DNA of 32,414 bases, taken from contig QBVC01000042.1 of the NCBI GenBank assembly GCA_003058495.1, positions 1 to 32,414 on the forward strand, written 5' to 3'. The translations under genes and the position numbers were made by a program. The DNA is from a gamma proteobacterium symbiont of Ctena orbiculata (lineage in GTDB: Bacteria; Pseudomonadota; Gammaproteobacteria; Chromatiales; Chromatiaceae). The notes beneath the pieces are model-generated. The model was not told the DNA's origin. It did no database searches and saw only the letters and a list, made by a program, of their open reading frames with translations. This document shows, piece by piece, positions 2,612 through 10,709 of the stretch (its first letter is position 1; every line of letters starts with the position of its first letter).

Positions 2612-3550
2612 TCAAAAACGCAGCCAATATCTGACCTCCTGACCCTTCAGGAAGGCCTCGGCGTCTTTTCCTTGCAACAGGGCGAAGGTGGCCAATATCC
2701 CCGCCTCGGTGCAGGTGTTCGCGGCAACGGTTGCCGACCTGGGTGCATGGGCAACGGGCCAGCCCGTTTTGGGATTCAACACATGACCGTAACGCCGGCC
2801 GTCCCGCAGCAGATAGCGGCGCGCGTCACCACTGGTGGCGAGTGCGCCCTTGCTGATTTTCAGCACCGCCGTGGCGGTATTCAGGCGGCCGGGATCCTCG
2901 ATCCCGATCGACCAGACCCCACACCCTCCGCGGCGTCCGTTGGTGTTGATATCGCCACCGAAATTGACCAACAGGCACCGCTCTGTCAGTTGTTGCAGCT
3001 GCAGCAGCACCCTGTCGACAGCATACTCCTTGCCGATACCGCCGAAGTCGATCTCCATGCCCTCCGGCAGGGTGAGGTAGGGAGGCGACCAGCCGACCCG
3101 ATGCCAGCCGACGAGAGGCAGCAGGGCCTCGACAGCGGCGGCGTCAGGGACGGCGCTGCCACCGTCGAAGCGCCAGGCACGGCGCAAGACCCCTGAAGTG
3201 ATATCGAACAGACCATCGCTCAGCTGCCAGCACTGCCGGGCGAAGTCGACCAGCTGGGCCACCTCGGCATCCACTTCGATGGCACGGCCCTGGCTGTTGT
3301 TGATCCGATGGATGATGTTGTCGTCGCGGTAACGGCTGAATTTCCGTTCGATGCGCCAGGCTTCATCCGCCGCACGCTGCAGCAGCTTCCATGCCAGCGC
3401 CTCTTCATCGACCGCCATGAAGAGCTCGCAGGGGCTTGCCATCGCCTGAAAGGATCCCCGCCAATAGCCCTCTGCCGCCTCAAGGGTCAGTGGTCCCCGG
3501 CGTTTTTTGTATCCCGTCTCAATTGCCGCTGTTGCTGAAGGCCTGTCCAT
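2612..3550 (-). CDS. apbE: ApbE-type FAD:protein FMN transferase, leaderless, with altered metal motif
   Basis: A 312-residue ApbE family protein. Recognisable motifs are FSRYRDDNIIHRIN (~71-84), DFGGIGKEYAVD (168-179), NFGGD (196-200), TSGDARRY (239-246) and GHVLNPKTGWP (255-265). ApbE moves FMN from FAD onto a Thr or Ser of a target protein. Two things are odd. The N-terminus (MDRPSATAAIE) has no signal peptide or lipobox, unlike typical periplasmic ApbE lipoproteins. In the usual E-A-D-x-x-x-T metal-binding motif the Asp is Gly-284 (EAGILAT), while Thr-288 is kept. ATG 3550 has AGAGGA at a normal distance; an upstream in-frame codon at 3628 would overlap the DUF3570 gene and still gives no leader. 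It is the last gene of the TlpA–DUF4266–DUF3570–ApbE set, so the DUF3570 protein is its most likely target. Confidence 0.88.
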   Translation of the reverse strand: MDRPSATAAIETGYKKRRGPLTLEAAEGYWRGSFQAMASPCELFMAVDEEALAWKLLQRAADEAWRIERKFSRYRDDNIIHRINNSQGRAIEVDAEVAQLVDFARQCWQLSDGLFDITSGVLRRAWRFDGGSAVPDAAAVEALLPLVGWHRVGWSPPYLTLPEGMEIDFGGIGKEYAVDRVLLQLQQLTERCLLVNFGGDINTNGRRGGCGVWSIGIEDPGRLNTATAVLKISKGALATSGDARRYLLRDGRRYGHVLNPKTGWPVAHAPRSATVAANTCTEAGILATFALLQGKDAEAFLKGQEVRYWLRF

Positions 3551-3587: not shown

Positions 3588-4871
3588 TTAAAAGTTGTAA
3601 CTGAACTGAAGAATGATTGCCTCCACATCCGGGAAGAGTTCCATCTCGCTCAAGATGCCGGGGGCGTCGCTGTCCTTACCGTCTCCGCTTTGCAGATAGT
3701 ACTCCAGACGCAGGCTCATCTCCTGCTCATTCGCCAGCTTTAACCCATATTTGAGTCCAACTGTGATGCCGGTCAACTCTCCGAGCCGGTAATCCGCGGA
3801 AGCAAATTCAGGAAGGGCCTCCCCTTGGCGGAAAAACCGCTGATAGAAGTCGGCCTCGCTCTGGCTGTAGTAACGGAAATGGGGTTCGAGAAAATGGCTG
3901 GGATTGAACATCCAACGATAGCGAAGATCGATGGTGTGGGAGGTAATGTCCCAGTCGTCCGTATAGAAACGGTAGGAGAGATCGAGAATGTCCCGGCTGA
4001 AGTGGTGCTTCAACTGCCAATAGAGCCCATGTTTCAAGCGGGAATCGGGGCGATTTTCATAGCGATAGTCCAGCGGGCGACCGTCGCTTCCCACCAGGCT
4101 GATGATCTTGAAAGGGTCGGTGAGATAGCCGCTGGCATCACTCAGGGAATAGCTCAACTGCATCACCGTCTGCCGACTGATCACCTGGGTGACGCCGAAG
4201 ATCAGATCCACCGTGGTCTTGCTATCCTCCCCGTCCTCCCGGGTCGCATCGAAAGCTTGGTCGAAACCGGCCTGACCGCGGTCGATTACCATACTTGAAA
4301 ACGGGATGGGTATATCGCCGTCCGGGCTGATGGTGTCATTGGCCACCGATAGTCCGGCGCTGAGGGTGGTGTTGCGTTTGTTGAAATCCCGGGAGATGGA
4401 GGCGTTGAGGCTCAGCGAAAGGTAGTCATATTCGGTGGAGAAATTGGCCCCGAAGCTGGTTTTGTAGTCCCGATTGAGCGGCTGATCCCACTGGCTGCTC
4501 AGGGCGACACGAAAGTCCTTGAAGGTATCGTCCAGGGGTGTCTCATCCGCATCGGTGGTATAGGTCCCCTCCCCGGAAGGCCGGGTAAAGGTCTGGGGTT
4601 GATCGCTTGGCGTCGCTCCGTTCGCCGATGCGCCGGTCAAGGCATCGAGCACCATCTTCAGACTCAGCTTTCGCTCATCGCCAAAATCCCGTTGCGCGGT
4701 CATCACCGGTTCGATGGCACTGACCCGGTCGGCCTCGGAGTAGTAGAGAATCGCGCTGTCGAAATCCCAATCCCCCTCCTTGGCAGCGACCTCGGTCCCC
4801 TGCACGCCCAGCAGACTGCAGGTCGCCGCGGTGAGCGCGGTACGAATCTTCTTCTGCTTGTTCAATTGCAC
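3588..4871 (-). CDS. DUF3570 outer-membrane beta-barrel protein with a flavinylation-like motif
   Basis: About 427 residues. A basic N-terminus (QLNKQKKIR) and hydrophobic stretch (TALTAATCSLLG) form a Sec signal peptide. The rest alternates aromatic/polar strands (e.g. SLRLEYYLQSGDG, HTIDLRYRWMF) and ends in F-S-Y-N-F, the C-terminal aromatic signature used by the BAM complex, so an outer-membrane barrel is well supported. I recognise the family as DUF3570. Just after the N-terminal region lies D-A-L-T-G-A-S (residues ~76-82), then N-G-A-T, which resembles the D-x-x-S/T-G-A-T/S motif modified by ApbE in FMN-bind domains. The GTG at 4871 was chosen because GGAGG lies six bases upstream; the gene overlaps the DUF4266 end by 10 bp, implying translational coupling. 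Its biochemical function is not known to me. Confidence 0.85.
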   Translation of the reverse strand: MQLNKQKKIRTALTAATCSLLGVQGTEVAAKEGDWDFDSAILYYSEADRVSAIEPVMTAQRDFGDERKLSLKMVLDALTGASANGATPSDQPQTFTRPSGEGTYTTDADETPLDDTFKDFRVALSSQWDQPLNRDYKTSFGANFSTEYDYLSLSLNASISRDFNKRNTTLSAGLSVANDTISPDGDIPIPFSSMVIDRGQAGFDQAFDATREDGEDSKTTVDLIFGVTQVISRQTVMQLSYSLSDASGYLTDPFKIISLVGSDGRPLDYRYENRPDSRLKHGLYWQLKHHFSRDILDLSYRFYTDDWDITSHTIDLRYRWMFNPSHFLEPHFRYYSQSEADFYQRFFRQGEALPEFASADYRLGELTGITVGLKYGLKLANEQEMSLRLEYYLQSGDGKDSDAPGILSEMELFPDVEAIILQFSYNF

Positions 4872-5083
4872 CCGCAACCTCCGCCGGCAAAACTGCGCCC
4901 GCCGCTCGAGGCCTCTTTGCTGAAATAGATATGGTCGTCCAGTCCCGCCTCTATCGGATCAGCAATCAACTGCATCTCCGGTTTTGCGAGGAGATCCCGC
5001 TCCCAGGGTTCGACCCCAAGATTCGCGCAACCCCCAAGCAACAACAAGGCAGCAACAAATATCGGGGCCGCTATTGATGTCAT
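4862..5083 (-). CDS. Small DUF4266 lipoprotein with C-terminal GGGCGCN motif
   Basis: A 73-residue protein. A hydrophobic leader ends in the lipobox L-L-G-G-C, predicting a lipid-anchored N-terminal Cys. The mature part carries W-E-R-D-L-L-A-K-P-E-M, then HIYFSKEASSGGR and the C-terminus GGGCGCN. This tail and the KEASSGG segment match the pattern I know for DUF4266 proteins. Two closely spaced C-terminal cysteines could bind metal or form a disulfide handled by the adjacent TlpA protein; that is inference. ATG 5083 has GAGAG eight bases upstream but leaves a leader without basic residues. An in-frame TTG at 5098 would add MRVSS and supply an Arg, so the start is not fully settled. It overlaps the DUF3570 gene by 10 bp. 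Confidence 0.82.
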   Translation of the reverse strand: MTSIAAPIFVAALLLLGGCANLGVEPWERDLLAKPEMQLIADPIEAGLDDHIYFSKEASSGGRSFAGGGCGCN

Positions 5084-5237: not shown

Positions 5238-5726
5238 CTACAGCAGGTTCAGCAGATTCCGGATCTCCTGCTCCCGAACCCCCTCCTCGGAATGGAAAAA
5301 TCCGATATGAGACTTGAGGATACGTCCCTGTTCATCGATCAGAAAGGAGGCCGGCATCCCTTTCAGGCCGTACTGGCTGGCGACCCTGCCCTCGGGATCG
5401 AATGCGATGGTGAACTCTGCCTGGTTGCTGTTGAGAAATGCCTCGGCCAGTGCATGATCCTTGTCGAGATTGATCGCAATCACCCGCAGACCACGAGACC
5501 CGTACTTGGTCTGCATCTGATTCATCCAGGGGAACGAGGCCCTGCAGGGTTCGCACCAGGAGGCCCAGAAGTCGAGCAGTACAACCTTGCCCTTGAACTC
5601 ATTCAGGGTGACGCTGGCACTCACACCCTGGAGCGAGAAATCGGGCGCCGGCGGATGGTCGTTGCCTGCCTGAAGCGATCCGCTGCAGAAGAGGTAGATA
5701 AAAAAAAGACAAAATAGACGTTTCAT
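5238..5726 (-). CDS. TlpA-family periplasmic thioredoxin-like protein
   Basis: A 162-residue protein with a signal peptide (MKRLFCLFFIYLFCSGSLQA) and a TlpA/ResA-like thioredoxin fold. The active site is W-C-E-P-C (Cys-58, Cys-61) within LDFWASWCEPC, and the cis-proline loop is GMPASFLID. Family members reduce disulfides or maturation intermediates in the periplasm, for example on cytochrome c or CuA-site proteins. ATG 5726 has AAGGAG upstream and puts the signal peptide at the N-terminus. Another in-frame ATG at 5762 overlaps the stop of the oxidase-like gene (ATGA) but would bury the leader behind 12 residues. The gap to the oxidase gene is 32 bp, so the two are very likely co-transcribed. 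The DUF4266 gene follows 154 bp downstream on the same strand. Confidence 0.92.
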   Translation of the reverse strand: MKRLFCLFFIYLFCSGSLQAGNDHPPAPDFSLQGVSASVTLNEFKGKVVLLDFWASWCEPCRASFPWMNQMQTKYGSRGLRVIAINLDKDHALAEAFLNSNQAEFTIAFDPEGRVASQYGLKGMPASFLIDEQGRILKSHIGFFHSEEGVREQEIRNLLNLL

Positions 5727-5758: not shown

Positions 5759-7138
5759 TCATACCCGTGGCGTTCTTGCCGTCAGGAAGACACGCAACAT
5801 CAGCCAGACAAAGATAATCCCTCCGATCACTGCAAGCAAGCCACCGATCCCCATCACACCCATGGCCAGCTTGGCCGAGAGGGAATCCAATCCCTGTGCG
5901 GCCCCCGCCGTCTTGCGCTGGATCCCCATGGCACCGGAGATCGCCAATCCGATGATGTGCAGCAGCTGTCCACTGCCGTAGATCCAGGGCTGCAGTTCCG
6001 CCAATCGACCGCTGACCGGTGGATACCCCAGCCTTGGAAGCAGCAGATAGGCCAATCCCATCAGCCCCATGGTGACCCCTACGATGGAGCCATGGTAGTG
6101 GGCCGGTATGATGGTATTGATCCCGGAGATGAAGAGGGCGATCGCGCCACCGCAGAAGAAGAGCAGCATCGACATCCAGAGGCTTCGACGCAGGGGTCTC
6201 TGCGCTGCCTCTGCAGGCTTCGCACGCATCAGGCCGATCAGGATCAGAATACCCACCGGCGTCACTGCCAGACCGCCGCCATACTGCATCAATTGGGTGA
6301 AAGCGGTTCTCGACTCAATGGTGACAGTCTGGTGCAGCATGTAGATCACCGGCACCAGCAGCACCGGCGCGATACCGAGAATCAACAGCCAGAAATACCA
6401 GCTTGAGCGGCCAGGCAGGGCTACACCGCTATGGAGGGCAAGCCAGATCCAGGCCAGCATGATCAGCTGGGTATAGGCAAACTGCAGGGTGTGTCCCGCC
6501 CCCCAGAAAAGGTACTCATAGTAGTTCTGGCCGCCCACCTCGGGCGGAATCTGCAGCCAGGCCGTGACGAGTGCGCCAAGGGAGACAAGGAAGGCCAGGG
6601 CGACGGTGGATCCCGCCAGGCTGGGGAGGTGGGAAGGGCTTGTCGACAGGCCCCGGCCCGCACTCAGACCAGGCAGCGATTGCAGCGCGATACCGACGGC
6701 AAAGAGACCCAGCATGAGAAAAAAGAGGGGCCTTTGCAATACCGGCACATAGTTGTTCATCAATGGCGAACCGTCACCGATAAACGCCGACAGGGCTAGC
6801 CCCAGGGTGCCTGTCAGTGCCATAAGAAACGCCGGTTGCTGCATCCCGGTCAAGCCCGAGTCTGATCGGGCATTCAGGCACCAGACCACCCCTGACATGG
6901 CGAGGAACCAGATCAGCACCGATTGATCGACGTGGACCACCAGGGCGGTACGGAAAAAGTCGACCCAGGGAAAAAAGGCCTCGCTGCCCGGGGTGCGCGA
7001 GAGTACCAGCAGCAGGGCGAAGAGACCCGCCAGGCCCAGCGCCAGCACCCCCAACTGCAGCCACTTCACCACCAACCCGCGCTGTCTCTGCCCGGGGGTG
7101 GGGATGCCTATTGCCGCACTGTCATCGATTGAGATCAA
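5759..7138 (-). CDS. Divergent heme-copper oxidase subunit I-like membrane protein
   Basis: A 459-residue, roughly twelve-helix integral membrane protein. Heme-copper oxidase landmarks are His-69 in helix II (VVHVDQSVLIWF), the helix-VI motif FWGAGHTLQF (His-216) and the helix-X pair in PAHYHG (His-347, His-349). These would supply two heme axial ligands, a third heme ligand and one copper ligand. In helix VII, where canonical enzymes have adjacent His-His copper ligands, this protein reads MLHQTV (His-269 only). No subunit II, III or cytochrome c gene lies alongside. It is therefore related to subunit I (often auto-named cbb3-type), but whether it reduces oxygen or nitric oxide is open. It is divergent from heme A synthase and SCO genes, which suggests a link to heme-copper biogenesis, and it heads the TlpA/DUF4266/DUF3570/ApbE run. 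Confidence 0.8.
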   Translation of the reverse strand: MISIDDSAAIGIPTPGQRQRGLVVKWLQLGVLALGLAGLFALLLVLSRTPGSEAFFPWVDFFRTALVVHVDQSVLIWFLAMSGVVWCLNARSDSGLTGMQQPAFLMALTGTLGLALSAFIGDGSPLMNNYVPVLQRPLFFLMLGLFAVGIALQSLPGLSAGRGLSTSPSHLPSLAGSTVALAFLVSLGALVTAWLQIPPEVGGQNYYEYLFWGAGHTLQFAYTQLIMLAWIWLALHSGVALPGRSSWYFWLLILGIAPVLLVPVIYMLHQTVTIESRTAFTQLMQYGGGLAVTPVGILILIGLMRAKPAEAAQRPLRRSLWMSMLLFFCGGAIALFISGINTIIPAHYHGSIVGVTMGLMGLAYLLLPRLGYPPVSGRLAELQPWIYGSGQLLHIIGLAISGAMGIQRKTAGAAQGLDSLSAKLAMGVMGIGGLLAVIGGIIFVWLMLRVFLTARTPRV

Positions 7139-9632: not shown

Positions 9633-10709
9633 TTATTGATCTGCAGGACCAGCCAGCCCCTTGGCCCCTTCGAGAACATTGCCTTTGAGATCGACACCCT
9701 CGAGGCTTGCCTCCCGCAGGTTCGCCTTACGCAGGTTGCAGCGTACGAGGCGGGCACCGGTGAAATCGGCGCCGTAGAGATTGGCCCCCTCCAGATCGGT
9801 ATACTCCAGTTGCGCCTGACGAAAGCTGGCCTGCTTCAGATTGGCGCCGTTAAACCGCACCCGGGAGATCTGCGCCCGGGAAAAATCCACGCCGATGAGG
9901 TTGCCGCTGAGTTCGAGCCCCTGGAGTACGGCCCCCTCCAGCTTCGCCCCGTTAAGCCTGGCGCCGTGCATCCTCGCCCCCTTGAAACTGGCATGACGCA
10001 GGTCCGCATCGACAAATGCAACCTTCTTCAATTCCGCATCGACGAACAGGGCATTTTTCAGGTCACTGCCGCCAAGATCGGCCTTCAGCAGCCTGGCTCC
10101 GGTGAAATCGATCCCCTGCAGGTCGAGTCCCGAGAGTCTTGCCATTCGCAGATCGGCCCGTTTGAAACTGACGCGGGCGAGATCGGCGGCAGTGGAGAGA
10201 TCGAGCCCGCGCAGGTTGGCCCTGTCGAGGACCGCGCCAGCCAGGCGGGCACCCTCGAGCCTGCCGCCCAGGAGTGATGCGGATTCCAGGTTGGCGCCGC
10301 TCAGATCGGCGCCAGAGAGATCCGCCCCCTCCAGATTGGCCTGGCTCAGATTCGCCCCGCTCAGATCCGCCCCGCTCAGGTTGGCGCGGCTGAATCTTCC
10401 CCGGGTGAGATCCTGTCCCTTCAGTGATGCGCCCTGCAGATTGGCGCGACTGAAGCTCGCACCGGCCAGGCTGGCGCCTTCCAGGCGAGCCCCGCGCAGA
10501 TCCGAGCTGTAGAGCATGGCATTGTCGAGTTGCGCACCGATGAGGTCAGCGCCGCTCAGGTCCAAATTCCGCAGGTCGGCCTGTCTGAGATCGCACTTCT
10601 GACAGCTTTTCGTTTCCACTAGCTGATGCAGGGCCTGTTCACTTGCCGAAAGCCGGGCGGCGATCAGGACGAAAATGAATCCAGCCAGGATAGATATGAT
10701 ACGGACCAA
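9633..10709 (-). CDS. Exported pentapeptide-repeat protein
   Basis: A 358-residue protein. The N-terminus (MVRIISILAGFIFVLIAARLSASE) is a signal peptide or anchor, followed by C-Q-K-C. From about residue 39 to 345 there is an almost unbroken series of A(D/N)LxX pentapeptides (e.g. ADLSGANLSQANLEGADLSG), near 60 units or about 15 coils of a right-handed quadrilateral beta-helix. Repeat units around 190-250 are the most degenerate, which may mark a bulge or interface. Family members act as scaffolds; the DNA-mimic (Qnr) role is unlikely for an exported protein. The start is a TTG at 10709 with a GGGGGAG tract very close upstream, an unusual initiation region. A 16-bp perfect palindrome lies 11-26 bp upstream. 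It converges on the zinc-ribbon gene, and no partner gene is adjacent. Confidence 0.85.
   Translation of the reverse strand: MVRIISILAGFIFVLIAARLSASEQALHQLVETKSCQKCDLRQADLRNLDLSGADLIGAQLDNAMLYSSDLRGARLEGASLAGASFSRANLQGASLKGQDLTRGRFSRANLSGADLSGANLSQANLEGADLSGADLSGANLESASLLGGRLEGARLAGAVLDRANLRGLDLSTAADLARVSFKRADLRMARLSGLDLQGIDFTGARLLKADLGGSDLKNALFVDAELKKVAFVDADLRHASFKGARMHGARLNGAKLEGAVLQGLELSGNLIGVDFSRAQISRVRFNGANLKQASFRQAQLEYTDLEGANLYGADFTGARLVRCNLRKANLREASLEGVDLKGNVLEGAKGLAGPADQ

Follow-up and report, generated by a model that had tools for sequence, protein, structure and literature searches.

In a gamma proteobacterial symbiont of Ctena orbiculata, an exported DUF3570 protein bearing a flavin-attachment motif is encoded beside an ApbE flavin transferase in which no export signal can be recognised. 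On which side of the inner membrane such an enzyme would modify such a target, and where the flavin would then reside, is the question raised by this locus. The stretch of DNA analysed, referred to here as the window, comprises 32,414 nucleotides (GenBank assembly GCA_003058495.1, contig QBVC01000042.1). The relevant features, in order of transcription along the minus strand, are as follows.

5759..7138, minus strand: COX1-like (heme-copper oxidase subunit I-like) protein, 459 aa (Pfam PF00115, a weak match of 46 bits)
~5238..5726, minus strand: exported TlpA/ResA-like thioredoxin with WCEPC (Pfam Redoxin/AhpC-TSA; PDB 3gl3, E 1e-44)
~4862..5083, minus strand: DUF4266 small lipoprotein with the C-terminus GGGCGCN (Pfam PF14086, 80 bits; lipobox LLGGC assigned by eye)
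3588..4871, minus strand: DUF3570 protein, predicted outer-membrane barrel, 427 aa, GTG start (Pfam PF12094)
about residues 1-30 of DUF3570, minus strand: predicted signal peptide
4626..4646, minus strand: D-A-L-T-G-A-S motif, DUF3570 residues 76-82, with Ser82 (codon 4626-4628) as predicted FMN acceptor
4611..4622, minus strand: N-G-A-T, DUF3570 residues 84-87, at the place after the first motif, not [ST]GA[ST]
2612..3550, minus strand: ApbE (FAD:protein FMN transferase), 312 aa, without signal peptide (Pfam PF02424, 222 bits, E 1e-65)
2783-2785 and 3026-3028, minus strand: codons of the conserved ApbE His and of the Glu of K-E-Y, respectively

The GTG start codon of the DUF3570 gene at 4871, GTGCAATTGA, falls inside the last codons of the DUF4266 gene (TGC AAT TGA), suggesting coupled translation. 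The apbE gene follows with its ATG at 3550, 37 bases past the DUF3570 stop codon, exactly as an initial sequence-only reading of this DNA had stated. Related loci were compared in a set of 80 close ones, kept from 174 confirmed, and 102 loci were used for neighbour counts. TlpA is present in 70 of the 80; the TlpA/ResA-like protein of the window, whose start was picked by eye as the second ATG, is a probable periplasmic thiol donor. The GGGCGCN tail is kept in 78 of 79 DUF4266 matches, a conservation that may partly stem from two overlapping reading signals, and overlap between the last DUF4266 codons and the DUF3570 start codon was seen in many loci. Scanning for promoters and terminators told us little, with 1 promoter-like site where 1.9 were expected.

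Beyond the four operon genes, the commonest neighbour is a two-component pair, recognised by eye at varying places in 46 of the 102 loci. Sixteen loci have a cupredoxin gene and 14 have a permease gene with weak likeness to EfeU (23 bits, cut-off 255), for the most part in Alteromonadales, and neither was seen beside the window operon; cytochrome b561 was counted in 9 Shewanella loci and DsbD in 7 loci. The COX1-like protein is a doubtful member of the DUF3570 system: neighbour clustering found it near the operon in 6 of the 102 loci, every one of clam-symbiont type, and it has no relative at 1e-3 in PDB sequences. In these six loci, COX15/CtaA and SCO1 genes stand on its other side. Elsewhere in the window, positions 9633-10709 encode a long protein with pentapeptide repeats whose N-terminus resembles a signal sequence; four neighbouring symbiont loci have it as well.

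Flavinylation of a DUF3570 protein by an ApbE has been described by Meheust et al. 2021 (PMC8238504), the only paper in the searched literature in which DUF3570 and DUF4266 were found. Expression of the Chlorobium luteolum DUF3570 protein with its ApbE in E. coli gave flavin fluorescence, and flavinylation was abolished only after serine was changed to alanine at both sites, two conserved [ST]GA[ST] sites being given there for DUF3570. The same study describes clusters of ApbE, DUF3570, a thioredoxin-like protein and DUF4266, some including DsbD and 316 lacking it, and points out the C-terminal CxC of DUF4266; its main text contains neither the word barrel nor porin, and "outer membrane" occurs once, in connection with siderophore transporters. 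With the DUF3570 "DsbD systems" as presented there, the window shares DUF3570, ApbE, a thioredoxin-like protein and a DUF4266 protein with C-terminal CxC. It differs in having one full motif instead of two sites, in the absence of a DsbD gene beside the operon (the single DsbD_TM match of the genome lies on another contig, C15), and in an ApbE without export signal, a feature absent from the consulted parts of PMC8238504. Whereas flavinylation of DUF3570 by its ApbE was shown in that work, for the window protein it is predicted from sequence.

The sequence-only reading had proposed covalent flavinylation of DUF3570 by the neighbouring ApbE. This proposal is supported by the C. luteolum experiment at the level of the family and by the sequence features of the window protein, the second site excepted; it was right in kind, and was already published for the family rather than new. 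The NqrC and RnfG FMN-bind proteins, which are served by a periplasmic ApbE, share D-x-x-[ST]-G-A-[ST], with FMN on the last residue, but the window DUF3570 has no FMN_bind match, is barrel-like, and has its enzyme predicted on the opposite side of the membrane. In keeping with the remark that no FMN-bind protein is encoded nearby, the three FMN_bind genes of the genome are all located on other contigs.

The window protein matches PF12094 with 507 bits (cut-off 25; E 3.8e-152; profile match 3-427 of 427). Its D-A-L-T-G-A-S stretch, first noticed in the initial reading, is borne out by the sequence and follows the definition of the ApbE flavinylation motif, D-x-x-[ST]-G-A-[ST] (PMC12052999); composition predicts 0.005 such motifs in a 427-aa protein, compared with the one present. 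Across 16 divergent DUF3570s (alignment A1, the window and 15 hand-chosen loci), the stretch ranks 2nd of 421 seven-residue segments and Asp76 is invariant. Across 63 close DUF3570s (alignment A3, the window and 62 of the 80 loci, the 18 left out including three of the four motif variants), it ranks 13th of 391. The motif is exact in 75 of the 80 close loci (71 TGAS, 3 TGAT and 1 SGAS), the first piece of the split frame of L060 standing outside this count, and S or P replaces its A in four loci (TGSS in L074 and L099, TGPS in L108, SGPS in L092). Conservation of the motif in DUF3570s next to apbE, which had been suggested as a check, was thereby confirmed. A second [ST]GA[ST] right after the first site is absent from all 79 relatives scored; NGAT occupies this place in the window, and sequences ending in V are the commonest there (58 of 75 counted). 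With one [ST]GA[ST] motif in 76 of the 80 frames, none in 4 and two in 0, the idea of a second flavin site was rejected for the DUF3570 branch of the window.

ApbEs are mostly periplasmic lipoproteins according to PMC12052999, and the consulted portion of that source mentions a single cytosolic ApbE from bacteria, the Klebsiella enzyme acting on a soluble fumarate reductase, besides trypanosomatid fusions. The window ApbE begins with MDRPSATAAIETGYKKRRG; the ApbE fold is reached within ~32 residues, and no hydrophobic stretch precedes it. Export signals were scored as the best 10-residue hydrophobic stretch following any start codon that could be used ahead of the domain, a crude, home-made hydrophobicity rule rather than SignalP, using a cut-off of 1.9 and a laxer one of 1.2, the latter quoted as well because 1.9 misses 15 of 79 DUF3570s. 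ApbEs were designated linked when a DUF3570 frame lay within 3 kb in the locus. Among the 88 distinct linked ApbEs (90 rows minus 2 truncated repeats, two further linked matches having been dropped as short), none reaches 1.9 and three reach 1.2. The partner proteins provided positive controls: signals were recovered in 79/79 DUF3570s at 1.2 and 64/79 at 1.9, and, at 1.2, in 77/79 DUF4266s and 61/70 TlpAs (9 missed). The signal contrast between ApbE and its partners inside the same operons is large.

Sixty-nine ApbEs were classed as unlinked, most of them from loci with just 1.5 kb of flank. Five of these are signal-less and of the linked type, and 56 of the other 64 pass at 1.9 and 1.2 alike; the eight that fail comprise one truncated protein, five ApbE-like proteins that are short and score low, and two more (L145, L171). 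A separate group, seen in several of these genomes, is made up of short ApbE-like proteins that score low, lack a signal peptide and read LLGTFVE or LLGTLVE close to their start (L220, L228, L229, L230, L154). The two other ApbEs of the window genome, both on other contigs, carry signals.

The signal-less enzymes also belong together by descent. In a tree of 147 rows, all 89 linked rows used, which may include truncated repeats, fall on one branch together with two of the relocated ApbEs described below (support 97). A more careful tree of 104 rows sets 37 signal-less ApbEs (35 hand-chosen from 95 rows, plus 2 new ones) apart from 67 signal-bearing ones with support of 100/100. The column after the conserved Lys holds Glu (K-E-Y) in 93/93 signal-less rows, again possibly with truncated repeats among them, and Gly (K-G-Y) in 56/56 signal-bearing rows. 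The conserved ApbE His is found in all 149 aligned rows, including 93/93 of the window type. A Cys in MASPC is conserved in 88 of 93 rows of the signal-less type. The motif, the operon, the lack of a recognisable ApbE export signal and the ApbE clade are established at the level of sequence.

Neighbour statistics for DUF3570 and ApbE, also suggested earlier as a check, show that 70 of the 80 loci contain an ApbE; of the ten that do not, five run into a contig end, judging by locus length. Three loci with a long flank and an operon without apbE (L046, L048, L049) come from genomes that encode an ApbE of the signal-less type elsewhere (L150, L224 and L152); no DUF3570, DUF4266 or TlpA match was found within about 3-5 kb of these relocated genes. 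L066, which has no adjacent ApbE, counts against this pattern: the sole ApbE that its genome yielded is truncated and belongs to the exported clade. L084 shares its assembly with L091, whose operon is complete. The cytosolic-type ApbE/DUF3570 pair was found in marine Gammaproteobacteria, including Shewanella and lucinid clam symbionts. The locus closest to the window (L037, 94 per cent identity) belongs to a gamma proteobacterial symbiont of Ctena orbiculata, and L038-L041 and L043 represent more clam symbionts, some of them Candidatus Thiodiazotropha.

The location of the DUF3570-paired ApbE, lacking an export signal, looks new. The ApbE/fumarate reductase pair of Klebsiella pneumoniae, as described in the part of PMC12052999 consulted, has in common with the window the lack of a signal peptide on the enzyme and an action in the cytoplasm, the latter predicted for the window; its target remains cytoplasmic, whereas that of the window is a predicted outer-membrane protein bearing a signal peptide. 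The literature search found no report of a cytosolic ApbE with an exported target, with passages checked solely in PMC8238504 and PMC12052999.

A cytosolic partner is not a property of all DUF3570 proteins. A search of 198 Nitrospirota genomes, the phylum of L098, gave DUF3570 matches in 25, over the cut-off in 23. When partners were surveyed in 22 stretches from 18 Nitrospirota genomes and 3 plasmid loci, 13 had an ApbE, and 11 of these 13 are signal-bearing (that of L263 lies ~3 kb away), those of L262 and the Vibrio locus L284 being without signal. On this evidence the notion that all DUF3570 partners are cytosolic was rejected; since DUF3570s of other branches use exported ApbEs, cytoplasmic flavinylation is not required for the fold. 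DUF3570s beside signal-bearing ApbEs carry S-S-A-S in 5 of 10 cases. On contig C23, the window genome itself encodes a second DUF3570 (SSAS) with a signal-bearing ApbE ~22 kb off on the same contig. The genome may thus run both arrangements.

The second DUF3570 type occurs in a large gene stretch in L129, L214 and L215 (the genome's own C23), and similarly in L134-L138 and L213. This stretch includes a large lipoprotein with two CxxCH (hydrazine-synthase-alpha-like in L137) and small outer-membrane barrels; in most cases a signal-bearing ApbE lies 7-23 kb off, and the motif reads SSAS, SGAS or SNAS. In the stretch of the window genome there are also genes that by eye resemble the ExbB/ExbD type.

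The features of DUF3570 are mostly consistent with a predicted outer-membrane barrel. The mature protein is cysteine-free in 63/63 rows, the last residue is aromatic in 75 of 80 frames (65 F, 9 W, 1 Y), and averaged hydrophobicity alternates over much of the chain. Sixteen strands could be placed by hand on one alignment, with inner turns of 3-6 residues, outer loops of 2-38, and a parity that is the same counted from either end. Relatives differ most in length in the outer loops; as exceptions, the inner turns after strands 12 and 14 vary, and two outer loops are short and constant. A DUF3570 profile searched against PDB sequences yielded no informative match, the best being a designed protein at E 0.21. 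In this hand-set topology, Ser82 would lie just past strand 3, where a long outer loop begins, with conserved polar residues around it. Sixteen positions were located in total (the 12 invariant and three of the five near-invariant positions of A1, together with Ser82), and all lie in an outer loop or within the 40 per cent of a strand nearest the outside, suggesting an FMN pocket at the outer mouth. The suggestion that a "periplasmic N-terminal part" carries the flavin does not fit this placement, in which the motif spans the end of strand 3 and the beginning of the loop and so forms part of the outer mouth of the barrel. Overall, the sequence-only reading, in which the missing ApbE signal peptide did not figure, is partly supported; that DUF3570 carries electrons to the outer membrane or across it, which it also put forward, is something we infer.

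The reading that we prefer, with a probability of roughly 65%, is that TlpA, DUF4266, DUF3570 and ApbE constitute a flavinylation operon in which a cytoplasmic ApbE attaches FMN to DUF3570 before export, the flavin finally residing at the outer mouth of the barrel. ApbE would use cytoplasmic FAD to place FMN on Ser82 of the new, unfolded DUF3570 precursor. The flavinylated precursor would then be exported by Sec, on the assumption that covalently bound FMN can pass SecYEG, and be inserted and folded by Bam as a barrel of ~16 strands, with FMN at or in its outer mouth. Electrons would probably arrive through a periplasmic thiol chain of DsbD (from the other contig), TlpA and the Cys-x-Cys tail of the DUF4266 lipoprotein, a path suggested by gene content and by the model in the consulted part of PMC8238504, and would pass from FMN to an outer-membrane or extracellular acceptor. 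Iron as that acceptor would suit the cupredoxin and weakly EfeU-like permease genes near some relatives. It is in this sense that we infer the order of flavinylation and export, the topology, the electron path and the acceptor.

The location of the reaction is where an alternative weighs most. DUF3570 could instead be flavinylated in the periplasm, either by one of the two signal-bearing ApbEs encoded in the window genome or by the window ApbE itself, exported by an unrecognised route. The prevalence of periplasmic lipoproteins among ApbEs (PMC12052999, as consulted) and the signal-bearing ApbEs that adjoin DUF3570s of other branches speak for this account. It nevertheless appears unlikely, given that the signal-less ApbE is co-inherited with the window type of DUF3570 in 88 linked cases, that the three checked genomes with an apbE-less operon keep a signal-less ApbE elsewhere, and that the open frames hold no signal-like stretch upstream, save in the three ApbEs with a weak signal at 1.2. 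Cytoplasmic flavinylation is consistent with the C. luteolum experiment: the relevant passages of PMC8238504 describe cloning similar to that of signal-truncated DUF2271 constructs and recovery from the cell pellet under denaturation. This evidence is at the level of the family, not of a particular ApbE type.

Two further explanations dispense with flavinylation of the window barrel. The signal-less ApbE might modify another, cytoplasmic protein, leaving the DUF3570 motif of this branch unused, much as the cytosolic Klebsiella ApbE modifies a soluble cytoplasmic fumarate reductase (PMC12052999, as consulted). We regard this as quite improbable, because few parts of DUF3570 are as well conserved as the motif, no neighbour family beyond the four operon genes exceeds 46 of 102 loci, and the C. 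luteolum ApbE and DUF3570 function as a pair in the experiments seen in PMC8238504. The D-x-x-T-G-A-S stretch might also be a structural element of the barrel that resembles a flavin motif by accident, a view to which the frequent, non-canonical S-S-A-S in members beside exported ApbEs and the S or P in place of A in four close relatives lend something. Set against the chance expectation of 0.005 per protein, the adjacency of DUF3570 and ApbE, and the loss of C. luteolum flavinylation upon the Ser-to-alanine change at both sites (PMC8238504, same experiments), such an accident is the most improbable of these accounts. Flavinylation of the DUF3570 precursor by a cytoplasmic ApbE is retained as the preferred reading.

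Extended beyond the window, this reading would make the entire signal-less ApbE clade cytoplasmic: it would flavinylate an outer-membrane barrel before export, and FMN would cross SecYEG on the unfolded chain to end at the cell surface, a generalisation whose prospects we consider evenly balanced. Existing descriptions place the flavinylation of exported proteins in the periplasm and link it to where ApbE resides. For the family as a whole, flavinylation is known from earlier work; what we think merits pursuit is the pairing of a cytosolic ApbE clade with a barrel that is exported. A cytosolic enzyme with an outer-membrane barrel as substrate makes it testable whether a flavinylated chain passes Sec and Bam, and whether a flavin at the outer mouth moves electrons across the outer membrane without haem. 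If the reading is true, FMN would sit at the surface, out of reach of any periplasmic ApbE, and these bacteria would possess a haem-free flavin outlet at the Gram-negative outer membrane for which no export of FAD is needed.
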